From assembly GCA_012521185.1 (NCBI GenBank), contig JAAYMV010000044.1, positions 1 through 50,902 of the forward strand: a stretch of 50,902 nt of DNA. Direction: 5' to 3'. The translations under genes were made by a program, and so were the position numbers. Position 1 is the first letter of the stretch. The number at the start of each line of letters is the position of its first letter. The notes below the pieces were generated by a model, which saw only the letters and a list, made by a program, of their open reading frames with translations, made no database searches and had not been told where the DNA came from. Positions 24,647-39,005 of the stretch are shown here, piece after piece. Source of the DNA: Bacillota bacterium. GTDB taxonomy: Bacteria; Bacillota; Limnochordia; Darwinibacteriales; DTU012.

Positions 24647-26650
24647 TTACTTTTCAACCTTTGATTTTACTAACTGAACAATTTCAGGTATTTGCTCAAA
24701 ACCTACGTTACCCATCACCTTGTCATCAACAATTACCACTGGACCACCAGCACATTGTTGACAACAGAAAGCTGCTCTTAGTTTTACATCCTCTTCATAG
24801 CCATCTTTTTGCAACATGTCTGTTAAGGTTTTTAGAATTTTTACGGAACCTTTAAGATAGCAAGAAGTACCGACGCAAACCTGGATATCGACAGGAGCAT
24901 TTTCCGGTTGATTAATTTTAATTGCTTCCGTATCAATTCTCCGTCTTGAGCCATATTCAGTATGCAAAGCTTGATGTGCTTCTTCACTGCCTGGCTCAGT
25001 TAACCATTGTTCATACAAAGAAGTGAGCATTGGGTTTTGTTGTGATTTGTGCATTTGTAAGCGTTGGTCTTCCCGGTATAAACCTTTAGTCCGTTCTTTA
25101 CGTAAATTTGTACCGTTTTGAGAAATAGGCTGACCGGCACCGCCCACACAACCGCCTGGACAAGCCATTACTTCAACCAAGTCATAATGAGCTTTTCCAC
25201 TCTTAATGTCTTCTAATAACTGGCGAGCATTGGCCAGGCCATTAACAATAGCTACTTTAATTTCAGTTCCTTTTAAATCAGCAGTAAAATCACGAACTCC
25301 TTCATGACCACGAACGTCGTTAAAGACGACATTTTGTAGCTCTTCTTTTGTTACAATTTCATAAGCATTTCTTAAAACTGCTTCTGATACTCCACCACTA
25401 TTCCCAAAGATAACTCCAGCACCTGTAGCAAAGCCAAAAGGCATATCCAATGCTGTTGGTTCTAAGGACGCAAAATCAATACCAGCTTCCTTAATCATGG
25501 AAATTAGTTCCTGAGTAGTTAAGACCAAATCTACATCTGGATTATTCGCAACAAAGAATTCTTCACGACCTGCTTCAAACTTTTTAGCAGTACAAGGCAT
25601 AATACTGATCACATACACTTGTTCTCGGTCTAAACCAAGATCCTGAGCATAATAACGTTTAACTACTGATCCAAACATTTGCTGTGGTGAACGACAGCTT
25701 GAAAGATTATCTAAAAACTCAGGATAATACTGTTCTGCAAATTTGACCCATGCTGGACAACAAGAAGTAAACTGAGGAATATTCTTTTTCTCACTAAACC
25801 GTTGAATAAATTCTCTAGTTTCTTCAATTACAGTTAAGTCAGCAGCAAAGCTTGTATCAAAGACTTTATCTACGCCCATTTGTTTTAAAGCAGTAGTAAT
25901 TTGACCAAGAGTTGACTGACCAACAGGTAAACCAAAGGCTTCACCAACAGCAACGCGCACTGCAGGAGCAATTTGGACAATAACCGTTTTAGAATCATCG
26001 TAAATTGCATCCCAAGCTTGATCAATCTGTGATTTTACTACTAAGGCACCTGTTGGACATACAGCAGAACATTGACCGCAGTTTACACAATCAACTTCTC
26101 CAAGCTGTTTATTAAATGCTGGTGTTACCATCATTTTTGCACCGCGGTGAGCAAAATCTAGTACACCAATACCTTGAATTTCTTTACATACACGAACACA
26201 ATCACCGCATAAAATACATTTATTCGGATCTCTAACAATTGATGGTGAGCTTACGTCTAAAGGAAGTTTGACATCTCGTTCCCCAAACCGAATTTGACGA
26301 ACGCCATAGCGTTGGGCTAAATCTTGTAATTTACAAGTTCCGCTACGCTCACACATTGTACATTCCCGATCGTGGTTAGCTAATAGAAGTTCTAGAATGT
26401 TTTTTCTTACTTTGCGTAATTTAGCTGTATTAGTTCGAACAACTAACCCATCTTCAGGAGGTGTATGACACGAAGCCTGGATGCCGCGGCCTTCTATTTC
26501 CACAATACACATCCGACAGGCACCATAAACACTTAATTCTGAGTAATAACAAAAGGTTGGTAAATCGATTCTTGCTTTCCGTACGACTTCTAAAATATTA
26601 GTTTCTTTGTCAAATTCAACCTTTTGTCCATCGATAATCATTTGACCCAT
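24647..26650 (-). CDS. hydA: [FeFe] hydrogenase catalytic subunit HydA (group A3, multimeric)
   Basis: Catalyses H2 formation or oxidation within an HydABC complex that couples NADH and ferredoxin. I place the start at MGQMIIDG (26650), because GTGGAGGTG precedes it; the open frame extends 8 codons into hydB. In order, on the 667-residue product: an N-terminal [2Fe-2S] domain (about 30-62), a His-ligated [4Fe-4S] segment (about 92-106), two [4Fe-4S] clusters (about 144-200), then the H-cluster with TSCCPAW (C297/C298), MPCTAKK (C353) and CPGGCVGG (C497, C501). A thioredoxin-like [2Fe-2S] tail follows (C592, C597, and Cys at 629-633). All canonical H-cluster residues are present. Last gene of the operon, 1 bp after hydB. 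Confidence 0.97.
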   Translation of the reverse strand: MGQMIIDGQKVEFDKETNILEVVRKARIDLPTFCYYSELSVYGACRMCIVEIEGRGIQASCHTPPEDGLVVRTNTAKLRKVRKNILELLLANHDRECTMCERSGTCKLQDLAQRYGVRQIRFGERDVKLPLDVSSPSIVRDPNKCILCGDCVRVCKEIQGIGVLDFAHRGAKMMVTPAFNKQLGEVDCVNCGQCSAVCPTGALVVKSQIDQAWDAIYDDSKTVIVQIAPAVRVAVGEAFGLPVGQSTLGQITTALKQMGVDKVFDTSFAADLTVIEETREFIQRFSEKKNIPQFTSCCPAWVKFAEQYYPEFLDNLSSCRSPQQMFGSVVKRYYAQDLGLDREQVYVISIMPCTAKKFEAGREEFFVANNPDVDLVLTTQELISMIKEAGIDFASLEPTALDMPFGFATGAGVIFGNSGGVSEAVLRNAYEIVTKEELQNVVFNDVRGHEGVRDFTADLKGTEIKVAIVNGLANARQLLEDIKSGKAHYDLVEVMACPGGCVGGAGQPISQNGTNLRKERTKGLYREDQRLQMHKSQQNPMLTSLYEQWLTEPGSEEAHQALHTEYGSRRRIDTEAIKINQPENAPVDIQVCVGTSCYLKGSVKILKTLTDMLQKDGYEEDVKLRAAFCCQQCAGGPVVIVDDKVMGNVGFEQIPEIVQLVKSKVEK

Positions 26651-26651
26651 A

Positions 26652-28529
26652 TTAAGACACCTCCACGATGGCATTAAACTTACAAGATTCTATGCAAGCG
26701 CCACATTTAATACATTTTTCTTGGTTAATAACAAAAGGATTTTTAATTTCTCCCTCAATTGCACCAACTGGACAAACTCTTGCACATCTGGAACAACCTT
26801 TACATAAATCAGCAACAATCGTAATTCGTTTTAAAGCCTGACATACTCCAGCTGGACAACGTTTTTCCACAACGTGGGCTAAATATTCTTCTCTAAAGTA
26901 TTTTAAGGTAGTCAATACTGGATTTGGAGCAGTTTTACCTAAGCCACATAAAGAACCAATTTGTACAGATTCACCAATCTCTTCTAGTAAATCTAGATCT
27001 TCTTCGGTTCCACGGCCTTCAACAATTTTTTGTAAGATTTCTAACATCCGGCGAGTACCTTCACGACAAAGTACACACTTACCGCAGGACTCATTTTGCG
27101 TAAAGTTCATAAAGAAGCGAGCAATTTCAACAATACAAGTGTTTTCATCCATTACTACTAGACCACCAGAACCAACCATGGCTCCAGCTGCTTGTAAAGA
27201 GTCAAAATCTAAGGGTAAGTCAAAGTGTTCTTCAACTAGACAGCCACCCGAAGGTCCACCAATTTGCACAGCCTTAAACTTCTTGTTTTGCCGAACACCG
27301 CCACCAATTTCAAAAACTACATGCCGCATAGTAGTACCCATTGGCACTTCAATTAAACCAGTATTGGCAACTTCACCAGTTAAAGCAAAGGTTTTAGTAC
27401 CTGGACTCTTTACAGCACCGATTGATTTAAACCAATCTACACCTTTGCGAATAATTTCAGGTACGTTTGCTAAAGTCTCCACATTGTTAATAATGGTCGG
27501 CTTATCCCATAAACCTGATACTGCAGGGAAAGGTGGCTTTGGACGGGGCATTCCTCTTTCACCCTCAATAGAAGCAATTAATGCGCTTTCTTCACCACAA
27601 ACGAAAGCTCCCGCACCTTCTTTGATTTTTAATTCGAAATTAAAGCCTGAGCCAAAGATATCTTTACCTAATAGTCCATATTCTTGTGCTTGTTTAATGG
27701 CAGTACGTAATCTTTGAACAGCTAAGGGATACTCAGCACGAACATAAATATATCCTTCGTCAGCACCAATTGCATAACCAGCAATAGCCATTGCTTCAAT
27801 GATCCGGTGAGGGTCACCTTCCATTACACTTCTGTCCATGAAGGCACCTGGATCCCCTTCGTCACCATTACAAATAATATATTTTTTATCAGATTCTTGC
27901 GCTGCCGCAATCGCCCATTTACGACCAGCAGGGAATCCGCCGCCGCCGCGACCACGTAAATTAGAATCATTGATCATTTGCACAACTTCTTGGGGAGATA
28001 AACGTAAAGCTTTTTCTAAACCTTGATAACCATCATGAGCAATATAATTGCGAATATCTTCCGGGTTGATTTCACCACAATTAGCTAAGGCAACCCGAGT
28101 TTGATATTTATAAAATGGAATCTCGCTTTCCCTTTGATAAACCTCACCAGTATTAGGATGTCGATATAAAAGTCTTTCTACTACCTGATTATTAACTGTG
28201 GCTTCAACAATTTCAGCTGCATCTTCAGGCTTAACTTTTACATATAAAGTGCCAGTAGGTTCAACTCTTACTAGAGGACCCATTTCACAGAATCCATGAC
28301 AGCCAGTGGTAGTCGTAGTAATACCGCCACAGCCATCTTCTAATAAATAGTCGACAGTAACCAACACATCTCTTTTTGCTAATTCATCCTTAAGGGCATT
28401 ATAGACTTGTTCTGCACCGTTGGCCATACAACCAGTTCCAGCACATAACAAAAGCGAGGAGGTTTGCTTTTTCATTGCTTTATTATATTTTTCTTTTACA
28501 GCTAATAGCTGCTCTAAATTACGAATCAT
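26652..28529 (-). CDS. hydB: Hydrogenase subunit HydB (NuoF-like, NADH and FMN binding)
   Basis: A 625-residue diaphorase subunit of the bifurcating hydrogenase. The N-terminal thioredoxin-like [2Fe-2S] domain has C29, C34, C77 and C81. The NuoF core has GRGGGGFPAGRKW (192-204) for FMN/NADH and ICNGDEGDPGAFMDR. The cluster motif ESCGKCVLCREGTRRM lies near 485-500. A C-terminal double [4Fe-4S] ferredoxin domain ends the protein (CKGCSRCARVCP and CIKCGACIESC). It is flanked by hydC (3 bp) and hydA (1 bp), so the subunits are tightly co-translated. Confidence 0.97.
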   Translation of the reverse strand: MIRNLEQLLAVKEKYNKAMKKQTSSLLLCAGTGCMANGAEQVYNALKDELAKRDVLVTVDYLLEDGCGGITTTTTGCHGFCEMGPLVRVEPTGTLYVKVKPEDAAEIVEATVNNQVVERLLYRHPNTGEVYQRESEIPFYKYQTRVALANCGEINPEDIRNYIAHDGYQGLEKALRLSPQEVVQMINDSNLRGRGGGGFPAGRKWAIAAAQESDKKYIICNGDEGDPGAFMDRSVMEGDPHRIIEAMAIAGYAIGADEGYIYVRAEYPLAVQRLRTAIKQAQEYGLLGKDIFGSGFNFELKIKEGAGAFVCGEESALIASIEGERGMPRPKPPFPAVSGLWDKPTIINNVETLANVPEIIRKGVDWFKSIGAVKSPGTKTFALTGEVANTGLIEVPMGTTMRHVVFEIGGGVRQNKKFKAVQIGGPSGGCLVEEHFDLPLDFDSLQAAGAMVGSGGLVVMDENTCIVEIARFFMNFTQNESCGKCVLCREGTRRMLEILQKIVEGRGTEEDLDLLEEIGESVQIGSLCGLGKTAPNPVLTTLKYFREEYLAHVVEKRCPAGVCQALKRITIVADLCKGCSRCARVCPVGAIEGEIKNPFVINQEKCIKCGACIESCKFNAIVEVS

Positions 28530-28532
28530 CTT

Positions 28533-29030
28533 TTACATACCCTCCCTTTTTTCTAGTACATCAATAATTAAGTCAATTGCTTCCGGAGTTACTTGACCAT
28601 ACACTTGATCATTAATGGTTATTACTGGTGCTAAACCGCAAGCTCCTAAGCAAGAAACAGTCTCCACACTAAACAGACCATCATCAGTAGTAGCTTTTCC
28701 GTCTACAAGCTTAACTCTTTTGCGAATGGCTTCATAAATTGGAAGGGAGCCACGTACGTGGCAGGCTGTACCATCGCAAACTTTAATAATATATTTACCT
28801 TTAGGATCTAAAGAAAATTGGGCATAAAATGTTGCCACTCCGTAAACCGTTGCTGGTGATAAATTCAAGGCAGTGGCAATGTAAGTTAATAATTCTTCCG
28901 GTAAATAATTGTGCTTTTTCTGCACTTCTTGTAAAACTGGTATTAGTGCTGACGGTGTTGAACCATGTTCCGCTATCACGTTGTTTAGCCAATCAACAAC
29001 ATTTAAGTCAACTTCTGCTGTGCGACTCAT
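28533..29030 (-). CDS. hydC: Hydrogenase subunit HydC (NuoE-like)
   Basis: A 165-residue thioredoxin-like [2Fe-2S] subunit. The four Cys ligands are in CDGTACHVRGS and SCLGACGLAP, and the N-terminal helical part has LIPVLQEVQKKHNYLPEE as in NuoE. It shuttles electrons between the flavin subunit and the rest of the complex. It starts 15 bp after the phosphatase gene with AAGGGATG as ribosome binding site. Confidence 0.96.
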   Translation of the reverse strand: MSRTAEVDLNVVDWLNNVIAEHGSTPSALIPVLQEVQKKHNYLPEELLTYIATALNLSPATVYGVATFYAQFSLDPKGKYIIKVCDGTACHVRGSLPIYEAIRKRVKLVDGKATTDDGLFSVETVSCLGACGLAPVITINDQVYGQVTPEAIDLIIDVLEKREGM

Positions 29031-29045
29031 TTAATTCATCCCTTC

Positions 29046-30185
29046 TTAAAAATATTCAATAATGATTATTTTTCCAAGTGCTTCTAACACTTTGGCAATC
29101 TTAGTAATTAACTGTTGCTTCAGTGATAAATGCACTGGTAAATTAGGATTTTGATGTGCAGGATTAATGGCCCTGCCAACTAAAAAATTAACTTGATCCA
29201 CTTCTAACAACAATTTTGCTAATCTAGTGGCTCCATTATCTTCATCAGGTATTTGCTGTTGACTCAAATATTCATAAACAGCTGATAAAGTCAACAAACC
29301 TTCAGTAACTAAATTTATTCCATCAATATGACCAATTGGCGGTATTGAATCACTTTCATTGATTTGTGCCAAATCCACTGATATTTCTGTACTTAACTCA
29401 CGAGCGACAATTGTAGCAGTGGTTCCACCACAAACCACTCGTTTTTGTTTTTCAGCTAACAGTTTTTGCAAATAAATTTGATCGTCATTTGGATCGATTG
29501 GCGGCCCAACAGCAACTGTCGCTGTTCTCTTAGTCCGAATTTTGCAAGCCAGTACTGTAGCATCATCCCGCATAATACCCCTAGATAATTTTTTTGCGTT
29601 CCTGAGAACGCTTTCACAAATTTCGGCAGAGGAATAATTTTGTTTAGCCAAAGCTTCCAGATACTTTCCCAGCTTTGGCGCCGTCCAGCCAAAATCTAAA
29701 GAGGCGCCAATTCCAGCATGAATCACTCCATCGGTAACTGCTACTAATAAATCATTTTCTTGGCCTTGCCAACGATATTCTTTAATTGAAAGAGTGCCAA
29801 TTTGCCGAGAACGGGCTTCTACAGCTTGAACAACCCCGTTACGAACTAGAAAAAAGCCAGGATTATCAAACTCAACCACATAAATGCCGCCATCTTGGAA
29901 AATTTGAATTAATGTTAAAGTTGAATAGGCTAATTTCCTAACTTTACATTCTGGCAAAGTACGCCCAATGGTATTGACTACATCTTCCAAAGTTGCCCCT
30001 GCTTCTAACATAGTCATGGCAACTTTCGTAGTAATAGTCGCTAATATATTAGCTTTTACTCCACTGCCTAAACCATCAGACAGTACCGCTAAAAAGGAAG
30101 TGGGTGTTTGACCAAATAGAACTCGATCACCACATAAGGGTTCACCATGTTTATTTAAACTTGTAAAAGCTCGTTCCACAATCAT
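29046..30185 (-). CDS. SpoIIE-type PP2C serine phosphatase next to the sensory hydrogenase
   Basis: A 379-residue protein. Residues 1 to about 215 form a PP2C/SpoIIE phosphatase domain: GDRVLF, LSDGLGSGVKAN (metal-binding Asp and Gly), VAVTDGVIHAG and MRDDATVLACK carry the expected acidic metal ligands. Residues 230-379 are a second domain that I do not recognise with certainty; it contains VVCGGTTATIVAREL and may bind a small ligand. Co-occurrence of a PP2C phosphatase with HydS and hydCBA is known in Clostridia and Thermotogales, but its target is not established. It starts 2 bp after hydS, with its ribosome binding site inside the hydS 3' end. Confidence 0.88.
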   Translation of the reverse strand: MIVERAFTSLNKHGEPLCGDRVLFGQTPTSFLAVLSDGLGSGVKANILATITTKVAMTMLEAGATLEDVVNTIGRTLPECKVRKLAYSTLTLIQIFQDGGIYVVEFDNPGFFLVRNGVVQAVEARSRQIGTLSIKEYRWQGQENDLLVAVTDGVIHAGIGASLDFGWTAPKLGKYLEALAKQNYSSAEICESVLRNAKKLSRGIMRDDATVLACKIRTKRTATVAVGPPIDPNDDQIYLQKLLAEKQKRVVCGGTTATIVARELSTEISVDLAQINESDSIPPIGHIDGINLVTEGLLTLSAVYEYLSQQQIPDEDNGATRLAKLLLEVDQVNFLVGRAINPAHQNPNLPVHLSLKQQLITKIAKVLEALGKIIIIEYF

Positions 30186-30187
30186 AG

Positions 30188-31882
30188 TCAGCCTACCTCC
30201 AGGCCGTCTGTAAAACTACTATCTTCTTGCTCAATCAACTTGATTAATCGGCTGAGCAATATCTGAGTCTCTGCAGTGGTTTCTCCTAATAAACTAGCCA
30301 CTTCTTGGGCAACTCGCATTTGATTTTCAATAACCTCATTAGCCTTTGCTAAGGTTTCTTCTTTTAACTTAGCTAACTCTTGGGTCTGCTGCTGTTCTTT
30401 AGTGATATCTAAGAAAATACCCACTATCACATTTGGGCGTTTAACAGGAAAGATTAATTGTTTCGTAATCTTCGAATACTGCGGATAATAAACTATATCA
30501 GAAATTAACCGTCCTTGTGATTTTACTAACTTATAATTCGAAGAATCAAATAAGTGCTCCACATTTTTATTCAAGTAATCCTGTCCTCGACAGTTAAAAA
30601 TTCGTTCGGCTGCAGGATTAACTGCCAAAATATTTAGATCACAGTCTGTAACAATAATACCATTCGGTGTATTTTCAATAATAATATTGGACAAAGATTC
30701 AGCGCGAGCCCGCATATAAGGAATACACATTTCTAACTCTGCTTTACCACGAGCTACAGCAATAGCTTTTTCACGACAAGTATTATAACCACAAGCACCA
30801 CAATCTAGCTGTTCACTTGGATGTAATCGTCCATTGCTAATTAAAACCTGATTGATTTCTGCTTCAGTTACTGGCTGTGGCTGATAAGGTGTAGCTACAA
30901 ATTCTCGCTGCATTTCCACAGCTGTCCAAGATGGGCGTGACGTTGTTTGATGAGTTGCTACCCTGGTTAATAAACGAGATTGTCGTACATAATAAGGATC
31001 CTGATCATTCCAACCAGCTCCACCTAAACATCCGCCTTTACAAATCATTAATTCTGCCCATTGACCATCAACATGGCCATCTTGCAAAGCATCCAAAAAC
31101 TGCAAACATTCATTAAAGCCGTCCACTACCCATAGTTTGCCTGACAACTCAGTCTCACTGCGACTTTCTCGCCAACCGCTTTCTGTAGAAAACAAACGAG
31201 CGGTTGCCGTACCTGTAACATCTGGTTGAACTGGTTCTAACTCTTCAACTGCCAATCCTAGCTTTTTAAAGCCAGAAAATATTTCTTGATAAGTTAAGGC
31301 TAAATCAACTTCTGTAAACTGAAAACATTCTACCTTTTTAGCTGGACAAGAATCAATATAAACCACTTTTGCCTCTGGATAACGCTGCTTTAGAGATCGT
31401 CCATGAACCAACATCGGTGATAATACAGGTACTAAGTTTTTAACTAAACTAGGATAGTATTTTTGAATTAAGTTAACAAGTGCTGGACAAGCAGAAGTTA
31501 ATGCTGGTGCAAGATGTTCTGATTGCCAATAATGAGCACTGACTTCTGGTACTACCCAGGCTGCTTCCTCGACTCTTTTAATTCCAAGTTTATACAAAGT
31601 GGCAACGAGAGCATATGGTTCTTGTTGAAGGCCTAAATATGAGGGTGCTAAACTAACTACAATTTCTTCTTTTTTCTCTAACCAAGTTTGAAAAACAGAC
31701 CATTGATCAACTAGTTCTTTGGCCTGCTGTGGGCAAATTCTTGTACAAAGTCCACAATTAATACATTCTTCCGCAATAATCTCAGCTTGCCCTTGGCTAA
31801 TCCGAATAGCCTTTAAAGGACAAAAACGGATACATTTATAACAGTCTTGACATTGCCCATAACTGCCTTCAATAACAACCAT
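30188..31882 (-). CDS. hydS: Sensory [FeFe] hydrogenase HydS (group C) with PAS domain
   Basis: A 564-residue protein. Two N-terminal [4Fe-4S] clusters (C11-C21 and C40-C50) precede a hydrogenase domain. Its H-cluster loops are TSACP (A131, C132), DSCPAKK (C179) and ICKGGCLGG (C281, C285). All four H-cluster Cys ligands remain, but the proton-relay Cys of catalytic enzymes (first Cys of TSCCP) is Ala and the usual Met-Pro before loop 2 is Asp-Ser. A further [4Fe-4S] domain (C361, C364, C369, C386), a PAS domain (about 395-495) and a coiled-coil tail follow. This layout matches group C putative H2 sensors. It leads the operon and probably signals through the adjacent phosphatase. Confidence 0.92.
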   Translation of the reverse strand: MVVIEGSYGQCQDCYKCIRFCPLKAIRISQGQAEIIAEECINCGLCTRICPQQAKELVDQWSVFQTWLEKKEEIVVSLAPSYLGLQQEPYALVATLYKLGIKRVEEAAWVVPEVSAHYWQSEHLAPALTSACPALVNLIQKYYPSLVKNLVPVLSPMLVHGRSLKQRYPEAKVVYIDSCPAKKVECFQFTEVDLALTYQEIFSGFKKLGLAVEELEPVQPDVTGTATARLFSTESGWRESRSETELSGKLWVVDGFNECLQFLDALQDGHVDGQWAELMICKGGCLGGAGWNDQDPYYVRQSRLLTRVATHQTTSRPSWTAVEMQREFVATPYQPQPVTEAEINQVLISNGRLHPSEQLDCGACGYNTCREKAIAVARGKAELEMCIPYMRARAESLSNIIIENTPNGIIVTDCDLNILAVNPAAERIFNCRGQDYLNKNVEHLFDSSNYKLVKSQGRLISDIVYYPQYSKITKQLIFPVKRPNVIVGIFLDITKEQQQTQELAKLKEETLAKANEVIENQMRVAQEVASLLGETTAETQILLSRLIKLIEQEDSSFTDGLEVG

Positions 31883-31935
31883 GTCCTACACTCCCATCAG
31901 AGTTATTAGGATGCTAAGTGATATTCTTCACATTT

Positions 31936-31964: not shown

Positions 31965-31968
31965 GATC

Positions 31969-31986
31969 TCGTGAAATAATTAACCA
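31969..31986. promoter_or_regulatory. Candidate Rex operator upstream of the hydrogenase promoter
   Basis: TCGTGAA-ATAA-TTAACCA resembles the Rex consensus TTGTGAA/TTGTTAA-N4-TTCACAA/TTAACAA, with two mismatches when each half is compared with the closer form. It lies just upstream of the -35 box, about 41 to 58 bases before the start point. Rex is encoded at 38343. Binding is an inference. Confidence 0.45.
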
Positions 31987-32082
31987 AAATTTATCATGCG
32001 GAATTAAGCAGGATATTCTCAATATTTGTGCAAGTTTAATATTAACCACGGTATGCTTAAGGGAACAAAGAAAGGGGCAACA

Positions 32083-35824: not shown

Positions 35825-35852
35825 AAAAGGGCTTGCCTAAGCGAGCCCTTTT
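35823..35852. terminator. Bidirectional terminator between the thiamine-binding gene and rubrerythrin
   Basis: AAAAGGGCT (35825-35833) and AGCCCTTTT (35844-35852) pair with an inner GC/GC extension around CTAA. Runs of A on the left and T on the right let it act on both strands; it overlaps the rubrerythrin stop. Confidence 0.83.
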
Positions 35853-36399
35853 AAAATACAACAAACTTATCCTTTTTTGCTCCGCAAATAGGACAAACAT
35901 CTGGAGCTTCTCCCAAGCCAGTATAACCACATACACCACAAATTTGAATATCCGTGTCTGGAATGTCCTCCCCCTTAGCAACAAGTTCTTTAGCGTCACT
36001 AAATAATTTTGAATGTATTCGCTCAGCTTCTAAAGCCCACCGCATCGAGGTTTGTGCTCCCTTTTCCTGCTGAAGTTCAGCAACTGCCAGATATGATGGA
36101 TACATTTGTTCAATTTCGAAATCTTCCCCAGCGATTGCCCCTGCAAGATTTTCTTCAGTGGTTCCTAATCCAAAACCAGCCATGGCTGTTACGGCAAAGT
36201 CTCCTGGTAGGCTTTTTAATTCTTTAAAATGATTACTAGCATGTACTCGTTCTGCATAAGCAATGGCTTCAAATAATCTGGATACGTTAGGAAAACCCTC
36301 TTTTTTTGCATGAGCTCCCCATACGCGATAACGCATATAAGCCATGGATTCTCCCGCATGAGCTGATCGCAGATTTGCAGCAGTCATATTGTTTTCCAT
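35851..36399 (-). CDS. Rubrerythrin
   Basis: A 182-residue non-heme iron peroxidase of anaerobes that reduces H2O2. The four-helix diiron domain shows HAGESMAYMRY, AIAYAERVHASNH and ALEAERIHSKLF with the Glu/His ligands. The C-terminal rubredoxin domain has CGVCGYTG and CPICGA for one iron. AAAGGAG precedes the ATG. It is monocistronic between a good promoter and a bidirectional terminator. The 36 bp region between its promoter and that of the FMN protein is shared, so the two could be co-regulated. Confidence 0.95.
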   Translation of the reverse strand: MENNMTAANLRSAHAGESMAYMRYRVWGAHAKKEGFPNVSRLFEAIAYAERVHASNHFKELKSLPGDFAVTAMAGFGLGTTEENLAGAIAGEDFEIEQMYPSYLAVAELQQEKGAQTSMRWALEAERIHSKLFSDAKELVAKGEDIPDTDIQICGVCGYTGLGEAPDVCPICGAKKDKFVVF

Positions 36400-36507: not shown

Positions 36508-36536
36508 TTGACGTAAATAATAAATAATGGTACTCT
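36508..36536 (+). promoter_or_regulatory. Sigma-A-type promoter of the double FMN-binding protein
   Basis: TTGACG (36508-36513) and TACTCT (36531-36536) are separated by 17 bases. A palindrome at 36551-36568 lies just downstream, where a repressor would block transcription. Confidence 0.65.
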
Positions 36537-36550
36537 ATAAACGGGTGGAT

Positions 36551-36568
36551 TGGTGAATGTATTCACTT
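36551..36568. promoter_or_regulatory. Candidate Rex operator downstream of the FMN-protein promoter
   Basis: TGGTGAA-TGTA-TTCACTT contains the perfect inverted repeat GTGAAT-GT-ATTCAC and matches the Rex core GTGAA-N4-TTCAC exactly. Only the outer bases deviate from TTGTGAA-N4-TTCACAA. It covers roughly +9 to +26 of the transcript. Rex is encoded 1.8 kb away. Confidence 0.6.
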
Positions 36569-36593
36569 AAACAAATTTAAGGAGGAATTGGTT

Positions 36594-37298
36594 ATGAAAA
36601 GACTGTCTGTTTTATTAGCTATTATAATGTTAATTGCCTCTACTAGTTTAGTGTCTGCTGCTAACTGGAAAGACGGTACATACGAAGCTTGGTCTGATGC
36701 TTCTGATAAAAGCATGGACTATGCCAAAGTGTTTATTAAAGATGGTAAAATTACTGGTGTTATTTTAAGAGAATATAACAACTACTTAGTTGAAAAAGAC
36801 TATGCATCCTATCCATTCCAACTTTATAGAGAAGCTTTAAGAACTCATGCACCAAAATATGTTGCTGCTCAAGGTGCAGATGTAGATCTTGTAACTTCTG
36901 CAACAGGAAGTACAACTGGTTGGAACCAAGCAGTAGAAAGAGCATTATTAAAAGCTGATCCAAACTACAATCCTGGTAAAACTTATTTTGACGGTACATT
37001 TATGGGTCGTTCCGAAACTGGCGACCGTAACTACTATGAAGTAGTTTGGGTAACAATCAAGGATGACAAAATTGTTGACATGAAGTTCCAAAGAGTTAGC
37101 ATGGAACCAACCGAACTAAAAATTGTTGAATTAGAAGACTATCCATGGCCATTATTAGGACCTGCTCGTGAGCAATATAAAGAAAATGCTATTAAAGCAG
37201 CTCCTGGTGAAGCCGACCTAGTAACTGGTGCAACTGGTTCCAGCAAAATGTGGGACAATGCTGTGCTAGACGCATTAGACAGAGCACGCATTCGATAG
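36594..37298 (+). CDS. Exported protein with two FMN-binding domains
   Basis: A 234-residue protein with a signal peptide (MKRLSVLLAIIMLIASTSLVSA) and two FMN_bind domains. Each ends in a covalent flavinylation motif: DLVTSAT (Thr about 104) and DLVTGAT (Thr about 214), which fit the ApbE-recognised pattern Dxx(S/T)GA(T/S), the first with Ser in place of Gly. Such proteins carry electrons outside the membrane. No ApbE flavin transferase or membrane electron-transfer complex is adjacent. I chose the ATG at 36594, 8 bases after AAGGAGG. Codon use is A/T-rich and regular, as for a highly expressed gene. Its operator-like palindrome links it to redox control. Confidence 0.88.
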   Translation: MKRLSVLLAIIMLIASTSLVSAANWKDGTYEAWSDASDKSMDYAKVFIKDGKITGVILREYNNYLVEKDYASYPFQLYREALRTHAPKYVAAQGADVDLVTSATGSTTGWNQAVERALLKADPNYNPGKTYFDGTFMGRSETGDRNYYEVVWVTIKDDKIVDMKFQRVSMEPTELKIVELEDYPWPLLGPAREQYKENAIKAAPGEADLVTGATGSSKMWDNAVLDALDRARIR

Positions 37299-38130: not shown

Positions 38131-38346
38131 ATGAATATCAACGATCTAATTGCACGAATTAATGAATTAGCTAAAAAAGCTAAAACAACTGGTTTAACTG
38201 AATCTGAATTAGTCGAAAGAGACAAACTTCGTCGCCAATATATTGATTTAGTTAAGCAAAACTTAGCCATAACTTTAGAAAATACTGTTTTTGTTGATGA
38301 AAACGGTAATGAAATTAAGTTTAAATCAAATAAAACCGTTCATTAA
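38131..38346 (+). CDS. DUF896 (YnzC-type) small protein
   Basis: A 71-residue protein beginning MNINDLIARINELAKKAK, with LTESELVERDKLRRQYID, the hallmark of the DUF896/UPF0291 family. The N-terminal half is a helical hairpin. The family is conserved in Firmicutes and its function is unknown. AATGGAGG precedes the ATG. It converges on rex, and their stops share TTAA (38343-38346). Confidence 0.9.
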   Translation: MNINDLIARINELAKKAKTTGLTESELVERDKLRRQYIDLVKQNLAITLENTVFVDENGNEIKFKSNKTVH

Positions 38347-39005
38347 TCTTTTATTTTATCAGAATGTTTCATTTTAAAAGACAAGCGTAACAAGCTATTG
38401 GTTAAATGAATATGTTCTAAAACAACCCCTTCTGGTACTTGGAGACGAACTGGAGCGAAATTCCAAATGGCTTTTACTCCACCTGCAATAACTTGATTAC
38501 AAACATCTTGAGCAACTTCTCGGGGAGTAGTAATCACGGCAATATCCACTGGATTGTTGGCTAAATACTCGGTTAATTTGTCGATCGGCTGAATAATACA
38601 TCCCGAAAGATATTTTCCTTCTAATAAGGGATCATTATCAAAAATTGCTTTGATTTCAAAGCCCCGATTGCGGAAGTTTTGATAACTGGCAATGGCTTTA
38701 CCTAAGTTACCTGCTCCAATCAGAATTAGATTATAAGCTCGATCTAAACCTAAGATACTGCTAATCTGATTATAAAGTTCGTCTACCCGATAACCATAGC
38801 CATGCTGACCAAAAGACCCAAAATAGCTTAAATCTGAGCGAATTTGGGCAGCAGTCAAACCGAGTGCTTCGCCCAATTCGCTTGATGATACCTTCTCTAC
38901 CTCTTGCCTAGCTAGCTCGGCCAAATACCGATAATAAAGGGGTAAGCGATTAATAACACCTTTAGGTATTCCCATTTTATTACCGTCACGTACAGGCATA
39001 TTCAT
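38343..39005 (-). CDS. rex: Redox-sensing transcriptional repressor Rex
   Basis: A 220-residue repressor that senses the NADH/NAD+ ratio. The N-terminal winged helix (about 12-85) shows RLPLYYRYLAELARQ, LTAAQIRSDLSYFG and FGQHGYGY. The Rossmann domain has LILIGAGNLGKAIASY (about 93-108) and a domain-swap C-terminal helix. In Clostridia it controls fermentation and hydrogenase genes. The exact start (first, third or eleventh codon) is ambiguous; AAGGAGTGA favours the third. It follows an exported protein gene by 19 bp. Two Rex-like palindromes are in this window, upstream of hydS and of the double-FMN gene. Confidence 0.95.
   Translation of the reverse strand: MNMPVRDGNKMGIPKGVINRLPLYYRYLAELARQEVEKVSSSELGEALGLTAAQIRSDLSYFGSFGQHGYGYRVDELYNQISSILGLDRAYNLILIGAGNLGKAIASYQNFRNRGFEIKAIFDNDPLLEGKYLSGCIIQPIDKLTEYLANNPVDIAVITTPREVAQDVCNQVIAGGVKAIWNFAPVRLQVPEGVVLEHIHLTNSLLRLSFKMKHSDKIKD

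Follow-up and report, generated by a model that had tools for sequence, protein, structure and literature searches.

A conserved palindrome behind the promoter of an exported double-FMN protein gene is a probable Rex operator of unusual sequence

Listeria PplA is an exported, flavinylated protein of the FMN_bind type that functions in extracellular electron transfer. The operators of the redox-sensing repressor Rex are inverted repeats built on a GTGAA-N4-TTCAC or GTTAA-N4-TTAAC core. In Gram-positive bacteria and Thermotoga they follow TTGTGAANNNNTTCACAA (TTGTGAA-N4-TTCACAA), and the clostridial consensus is TTGTTAANNNNTTAACAA in the accessible text of the source (PMC8457756). According to the accessible portions of the respective papers, known Rex targets are hydrogenase operons, their regulator and adhE (PMC8457756, PMC11481553), and the hydrogenase operon and its regulator are also targets in Clostridium thermocellum and Caldicellulosiruptor (PMC8457756, PMC6391272). 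Rex motifs of the form TTGTGA-N6-TCACAA have further been reported, in the part of the paper available, before three extracellular multihaem cytochrome genes of Calderihabitans maritimus KKC1, which were raised under reducing conditions (PMC7306483). A term search of the main text of the Listeria Rex regulon paper detected neither pplA, fmnB nor flavin (PMC8389512), and the term 'FMN' was absent from the main text of the regulon papers on C. thermocellum and Caldicellulosiruptor (PMC8457756, PMC6391272). The initial annotation of the DNA analyzed here had proposed a link between cytosolic redox state and extracytoplasmic electron flow that was not known to it as described. For extracellular carriers in general, the predicted Rex control in C. 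maritimus precedes this proposal (PMC7306483, accessible text), but no report linking Rex to flavinylated carriers was found in the literature searched, of which the principal study of Rex regulons (Ravcheev 2012) was not a part.

The window, which is the whole 50,902-nt stretch of contig JAAYMV010000044.1 from a Bacillota bacterium, encodes on its plus strand (36594..37298) an exported protein of 234 amino acids with two FMN_bind (PF04205) stretches, referred to here as the double-FMN protein. The N-terminus appeared signal-peptide-like by eye. The two domains carry the D-x-x-[ST]-G-A-T type motif of ApbE-flavinylated carriers, as DLVTSATGS and DLVTGATGS, and this flavinylation-type motif was conserved in the alignment, with TSAT in place of TGAT in the first domain of the window's species. 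The protein is like PplA in being exported, of the FMN_bind type and equipped with flavinylation-type motifs, but the resemblance was weak, as it scored 23.3 bits against the NCBIfam PplA cut-off of 325. The double-FMN protein is predicted to be covalently flavinylated and to serve as an outward electron path, with flavin as the carrier in contrast to the haem carriers of C. maritimus.

A sigma-A promoter was predicted upstream of the gene at 36508..36536 (plus strand), composed of a -35 box TTGACG (36508-36513), a 17-bp spacer and a -10 box TACTCT (36531-36536) extended by TGG. Behind this promoter, positions 36551-36568 read TGGTGAATGTATTCACTT and contain the operator-like palindrome GTGAAT-GT-ATTCAC (36553..36566, assigned to neither strand), a perfect 6+2+6 inverted repeat located 27 bp before the ATG (36594). 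Its core, GTGAA-TGTA-TTCAC, starts 16 bp past the -10 box. The sequence, the coordinates and the 6+6 repeat given in the initial annotation were correct, and the placement of the site at +9 to +26 was a reasonable prediction in view of the 16-bp distance. The exact match to Rex claimed there was confirmed for all 10 fixed bases of the core GTGAA-N4-TTCAC, but did not extend to the full 18-mer, in which the palindrome fits 11 of the 14 fixed positions and has 3 mismatches. The window held six 18-mers with 3 or fewer mismatches to TTGTGAANNNNTTCACAA when 5.1 were expected, which is the chance level, and one exact core when 0.09 were expected. The whole 2.11-Mb genome held three exact cores, of which the other two were intragenic. 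Because 9 of 100 window shuffles also contained such a core, the single palindrome, judged from the window alone, could be due to chance.

The conservation of the palindrome upstream of orthologous genes, however, shows that it is functional. The comparison covered 36 genomes, and the resulting counts are not independent because all of them belong to one order. Orthologues of the double-FMN protein (E below 1e-60) were present in 29 genomes, and 27 of the 29 upstream regions scored as having the site. GTGA-N6-TCAC was detected within 110 bp upstream of 25 of the 29 orthologues against 0.03 expected from dinucleotide shuffles, and GTGAA-N4-TTCAC within the same distance of 18 against 0.005 expected. 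The presence of the site in related genomes, which the initial annotation had suggested as a check, was thus confirmed. The main constants of the promoter alignment were TTGAC, TGnTAnnCT, GGG about where transcription is expected to begin, the site itself as a conserved unit of about 36550-36569 (TTGGTGAATGTATTCACTTA) and GGAGG, while the flanks had diverged. Of the 27 site-bearing promoters, 26 had GTGA 12-17 bp behind the -10 box; in the remaining one (G005), TTGACT-N17-TAATCT was recognized by eye, as in its relatives. This conserved place behind the -10 box, where a bound protein would block transcription, suits a repressor and not an activator. No site was found in the upstream regions of the remaining two orthologues (G023 and G024), nor at four loci of distant homologues outside the order (L018-L021).

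Several individual loci showed further features. The double-FMN gene was tandemly duplicated in G022:C43 (L153:6001 and 6855), where the downstream copy has a good site and the upstream copy a weak one; this second, weak-site copy was left outside the 29 orthologues. In G008:C90 (L157:5910-5947), a perfect 17+4+17 inverted repeat, TTAAGTACATTAGTGAA-TTGT-TTCACTAATGTACTTAA, is built around the site. A rubrerythrin gene (35851-36399) lies divergent from the double-FMN gene in the window, and rubrerythrin occupied this place only in G004 among the 20 neighbourhoods searched, indicating that it is the FMN gene to which the operator belongs. A strict promoter-plus-site pattern gave 14 matches in the 36 genomes, three of which were promoters of the double-FMN gene.

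A gene for a Rex-family repressor, rex (Rex-1), is located about 1.8 kb from the palindrome at 38343..39005 on the minus strand. The deduced protein has the Put_DNA-bind_N and CoA_binding (Rossmann) domains, the GxGxxG motif in the form GAGNLG for NAD binding and the recognition helix TAAQIRSDLSYFGSFG, and scored 287 bits against a cut-off of 233. A Rex match was obtained in all 36 genomes and Rex-1 in 35 of them, so that Rex is encoded in every genome of this set that has the site. Moreover, in 27 of the 29 genomes a single contig carries rex within 6 kb of the double-FMN gene; in G004 and G005 the two genes are on separate contigs. This adjacency counts for little as evidence, because the whole surrounding block is syntenic.

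The window also includes an operon of a classic Rex target class, the NADH-dependent [FeFe] hydrogenase (group A6) operon on the minus strand (24647..31882). It encodes, in order, a hydrogenase-like sensor with PAS (30188-31882), a SpoIIE-type phosphatase (29046-30185), a NuoE-like protein (28533-29030), a NuoF-like protein (26652-28529) and HydA (24647-26674). The operon promoter TTGCAA-N17-TATAAT has TTGGTTAATTATTTCACGA before it and GTGAAGAATATCAC directly after it. Two operator-like sites were assigned here, both given as minus-strand sequence: site A (TTGGTTAATTATTTCACGAG, 31968..31987) upstream of the -35 box and site B (GTGAAGAATATCAC, 31918..31931) right after the -10 box TATAAT. Close relatives of the hydrogenase-sensor gene were present in only 6 of the 36 genomes; GTGA-N6-TCAC right after the -10 box was kept in five of these six, and the second site before the -35 box also in five (four of five besides the window's genome). 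The latter read TTGTTAA-N4-NTAACAA by eye in three genomes, which is close to the clostridial consensus TTGTTAANNNNTTAACAA. The adhE gene (868 aa) of the window's genome has the promoter TTGACA-N17-TATTAT, followed by GTTAAAAATTTCAC. Two classic Rex targets of this genome accordingly carry sites similar to that of the double-FMN gene, at the same place after the -10 box. With one mismatch allowed, the core pattern matched the genome at 63 places and the reversed control pattern at 49, so that most such matches are due to chance. The 49 of the 63 places that were examined (C41:8537 was left out) included intergenic ones at seven loci, namely adhE, the hydrogenase promoter, the double-FMN gene, an ArsR gene and three loci without a clear redox link.

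Related palindromes were observed elsewhere in the order. In G007:C49:26673-26686 (L233:2674-2687), TTGTGAACACATTCACAG directly precedes two genes, for NusG_II and for a 585-aa FMN_bind/fumarate-reductase-like flavocytochrome; this locus is a putative second operon for an exported flavoprotein, and its Rex site is near-canonical. In G011 (L084:1501-1519) and G010 (L136:957-975), TTAGTGAAGA(T/C)TTTCGCTAA, the same operator variant as at the double-FMN gene, follows the promoter of another redox operon, with a ferredoxin-like gene and, in G011, aldehyde ferredoxin oxidoreductase. In G005:C39 (L076:1399-1416), the ATP synthase operon has GTGTGAACACGTTCACAA immediately behind its promoter. GTGAA-type palindromes (L250:898-972 in G000:C80, L122 and L140) stand just before an ArsR-family gene in the window's genome and, as TTATGAAAT(A/C)TTTCACAA, in six genomes of one genus of another family, two of which were read for context. 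The palindrome before the ArsR gene is possibly a site of ArsR self-control.

The 27 sites at the double-FMN gene share a deviation from the Rex consensus. Their upstream halves are invariant at G5, T6, G7 and A8, but base 4, directly before GTGA, was G in 23 and A in 4 sites and never the T of the consensus, so that the half-site reads TTRGTGAA and never TTGTGAA. The spacer is likewise not restricted to A/T, one of its positions being G in 22 of the 27 sites. In Thermotoga maritima Rex, as described in the accessible text of the source, Arg48 reads G5, Lys49 reads G7 and A8, and Arg60 and Gly61 touch T4 and T3 (PMC8836258). Rex-1 has Arg-Ser-Asp at the place of the T. maritima Arg-Lys-Asp, retaining GAGNLG and the G5-reading Arg, and its helix was IRSD in every recovered match (45, some loci overlapping); the solved Rex proteins aligned have Lys or Gln where Rex-1 has Ser. 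Nearly all genomes encode a second paralogue, Rex-2, with 36-45% identity to the window's Rex and the helix VRKD, including the usual Lys, in the six loci read. Since Rex-1 has Ser for Lys and Rex-2 has the usual residue, the binder could also be Rex-2.

The paralogues were missing from a few assemblies, Rex-2 from G001, G002 and G006, and Rex-1 together with the FMN protein from G015, about as often as incomplete assemblies give. The sole Rex-1 with an altered YFG stretch (SHFG) was that of G024, which lacks the site; G023, also without the site, has the usual helix. The Rex-2 gene of G000:C28 (L231:7307-7951), with the usual RKD helix, lies in an apparent housekeeping block (folD, rlmH, argS, pyrG), and the idea of a functional cluster of Rex-2 with other FMN_bind genes was dropped, as its surroundings in G007 and G000 both appeared by eye to be this block. 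Canonical 18-mers of the TTGTGAANNNNTTCACAA type within one mismatch were mildly enriched in the 36 genomes (29 forward against 12 control matches). Beyond the double-FMN promoters, the exact TTRGTGAA-site pattern matched once within coding sequence in G000 (L005) and once in G018, and the one-mismatch matches whose neighbour genes were read revealed no regulon other than the aldehyde ferredoxin oxidoreductase operon of G010 and G011.

GTGA-N6-TCAC is the core of Crp/Fnr sites too, and the palindrome may belong to a regulator other than Rex that recognizes such a repeat, for example an ArsR-type repressor or a member of the Crp/Fnr family. We regard this as unlikely but worth keeping in view, chiefly because R at base 4 and a spacer containing G are atypical of Rex. 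The related palindromes before ArsR genes in G000 and in the six genomes of one genus point in the same direction, and a Crp/Fnr domain (PF13545) scored over the cut-off in 34 of the 36 genomes. The two exceptions, G003 (99% complete) and G008 (92%), nevertheless have the site, so that a Crp/Fnr protein was not found in all site-bearing genomes, allowing for incomplete assemblies; binding by a Crp/Fnr-family protein was the alternative that the initial annotation had named as refuting its proposal. Crp/Fnr activators usually bind upstream of the -35 box, but the site is positioned downstream of the -10 box and neither upstream of nor overlapping the -35 box. Moreover, the hydrogenase operon and adhE, both classic Rex targets, carry like sites at a like place, and no regulator other than Rex was recognized near the double-FMN gene in the window; the 20 neighbourhoods in related genomes were covered by probing with 14 window proteins.

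The palindrome would be transcribed, and it could instead act as RNA, a 5'-proximal mRNA hairpin that stabilizes the message or controls its translation. Indeed, each of the 27 sites, folded alone, gave a hairpin (-1.7 to -9.4 kcal/mol), and many of them had G-C, G-U or A-U as the pair flanking the core. This explanation is nonetheless improbable, as GTGA was identical in 27 of 27 sites and TCAC in 25 (CCAC in the other two) without compensatory change, and the outer pairs were broken in genus g4 of f1 and in f2 genomes. The half-sites at the hydrogenase and adhE promoters also vary between GTTAA and GTGAA without a matching change in the partner. A chance palindrome without function would agree with the two intragenic exact cores among the three of the genome and with the shuffled windows that hold one, but it is contradicted by the 25 of 29 conserved upstream regions and appears very improbable, barring a shared non-regulatory cause.

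A Rex operator repressing the double-FMN gene at high NAD+ is the best explanation of the palindrome, because the site is conserved in sequence and position, rex is encoded in the window and related sites are found on the hydrogenase and adhE promoters. We assign this reading a probability of about 0.7, and the double-FMN gene would then be a new member of the Rex regulon with an unusual operator variant. The proposal of such repression in the initial annotation thereby gained support, tempered by the outer base that departs from the consensus and by the existence of two paralogues. The site resembles the described Rex operators in having a GTGAA-N4-TTCAC palindrome near the transcription start, a redox gene downstream and rex nearby, and differs from them at base 4 and in the spacer. 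The binder would be a Rex-family repressor, most likely Rex-1, which is encoded 1.8 kb away.

When NAD+ is dominant, a Rex dimer bound immediately behind the -10 box would block transcription of the double-FMN gene. A rise in NADH would release Rex and allow the exported flavoprotein to be made, together with the [FeFe] hydrogenase operon and AdhE as NADH-consuming outlets. More tentatively, and with rather less than even odds, the Rex paralogue with Lys changed to Ser in its helix and the shifted operator TTRGTGAA-N4-TTCACYA may form an order-wide, near-dedicated circuit coupling the cytosolic NADH/NAD+ ratio to a doubly flavinylated exported carrier. The outward electron path would open as NADH accumulates, and the two paralogues would split the redox regulon by operator type. 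The 51-kb window, with rex, a classic target and a new target, would be a compact test case for such a division of operators between Rex paralogues. If the Rex reading is true, the reach of a well-known bacterial NADH sensor extends to an electron carrier that is based on flavin and lies outside the membrane, and extracytoplasmic electron disposal would join hydrogen and ethanol formation in one programme.
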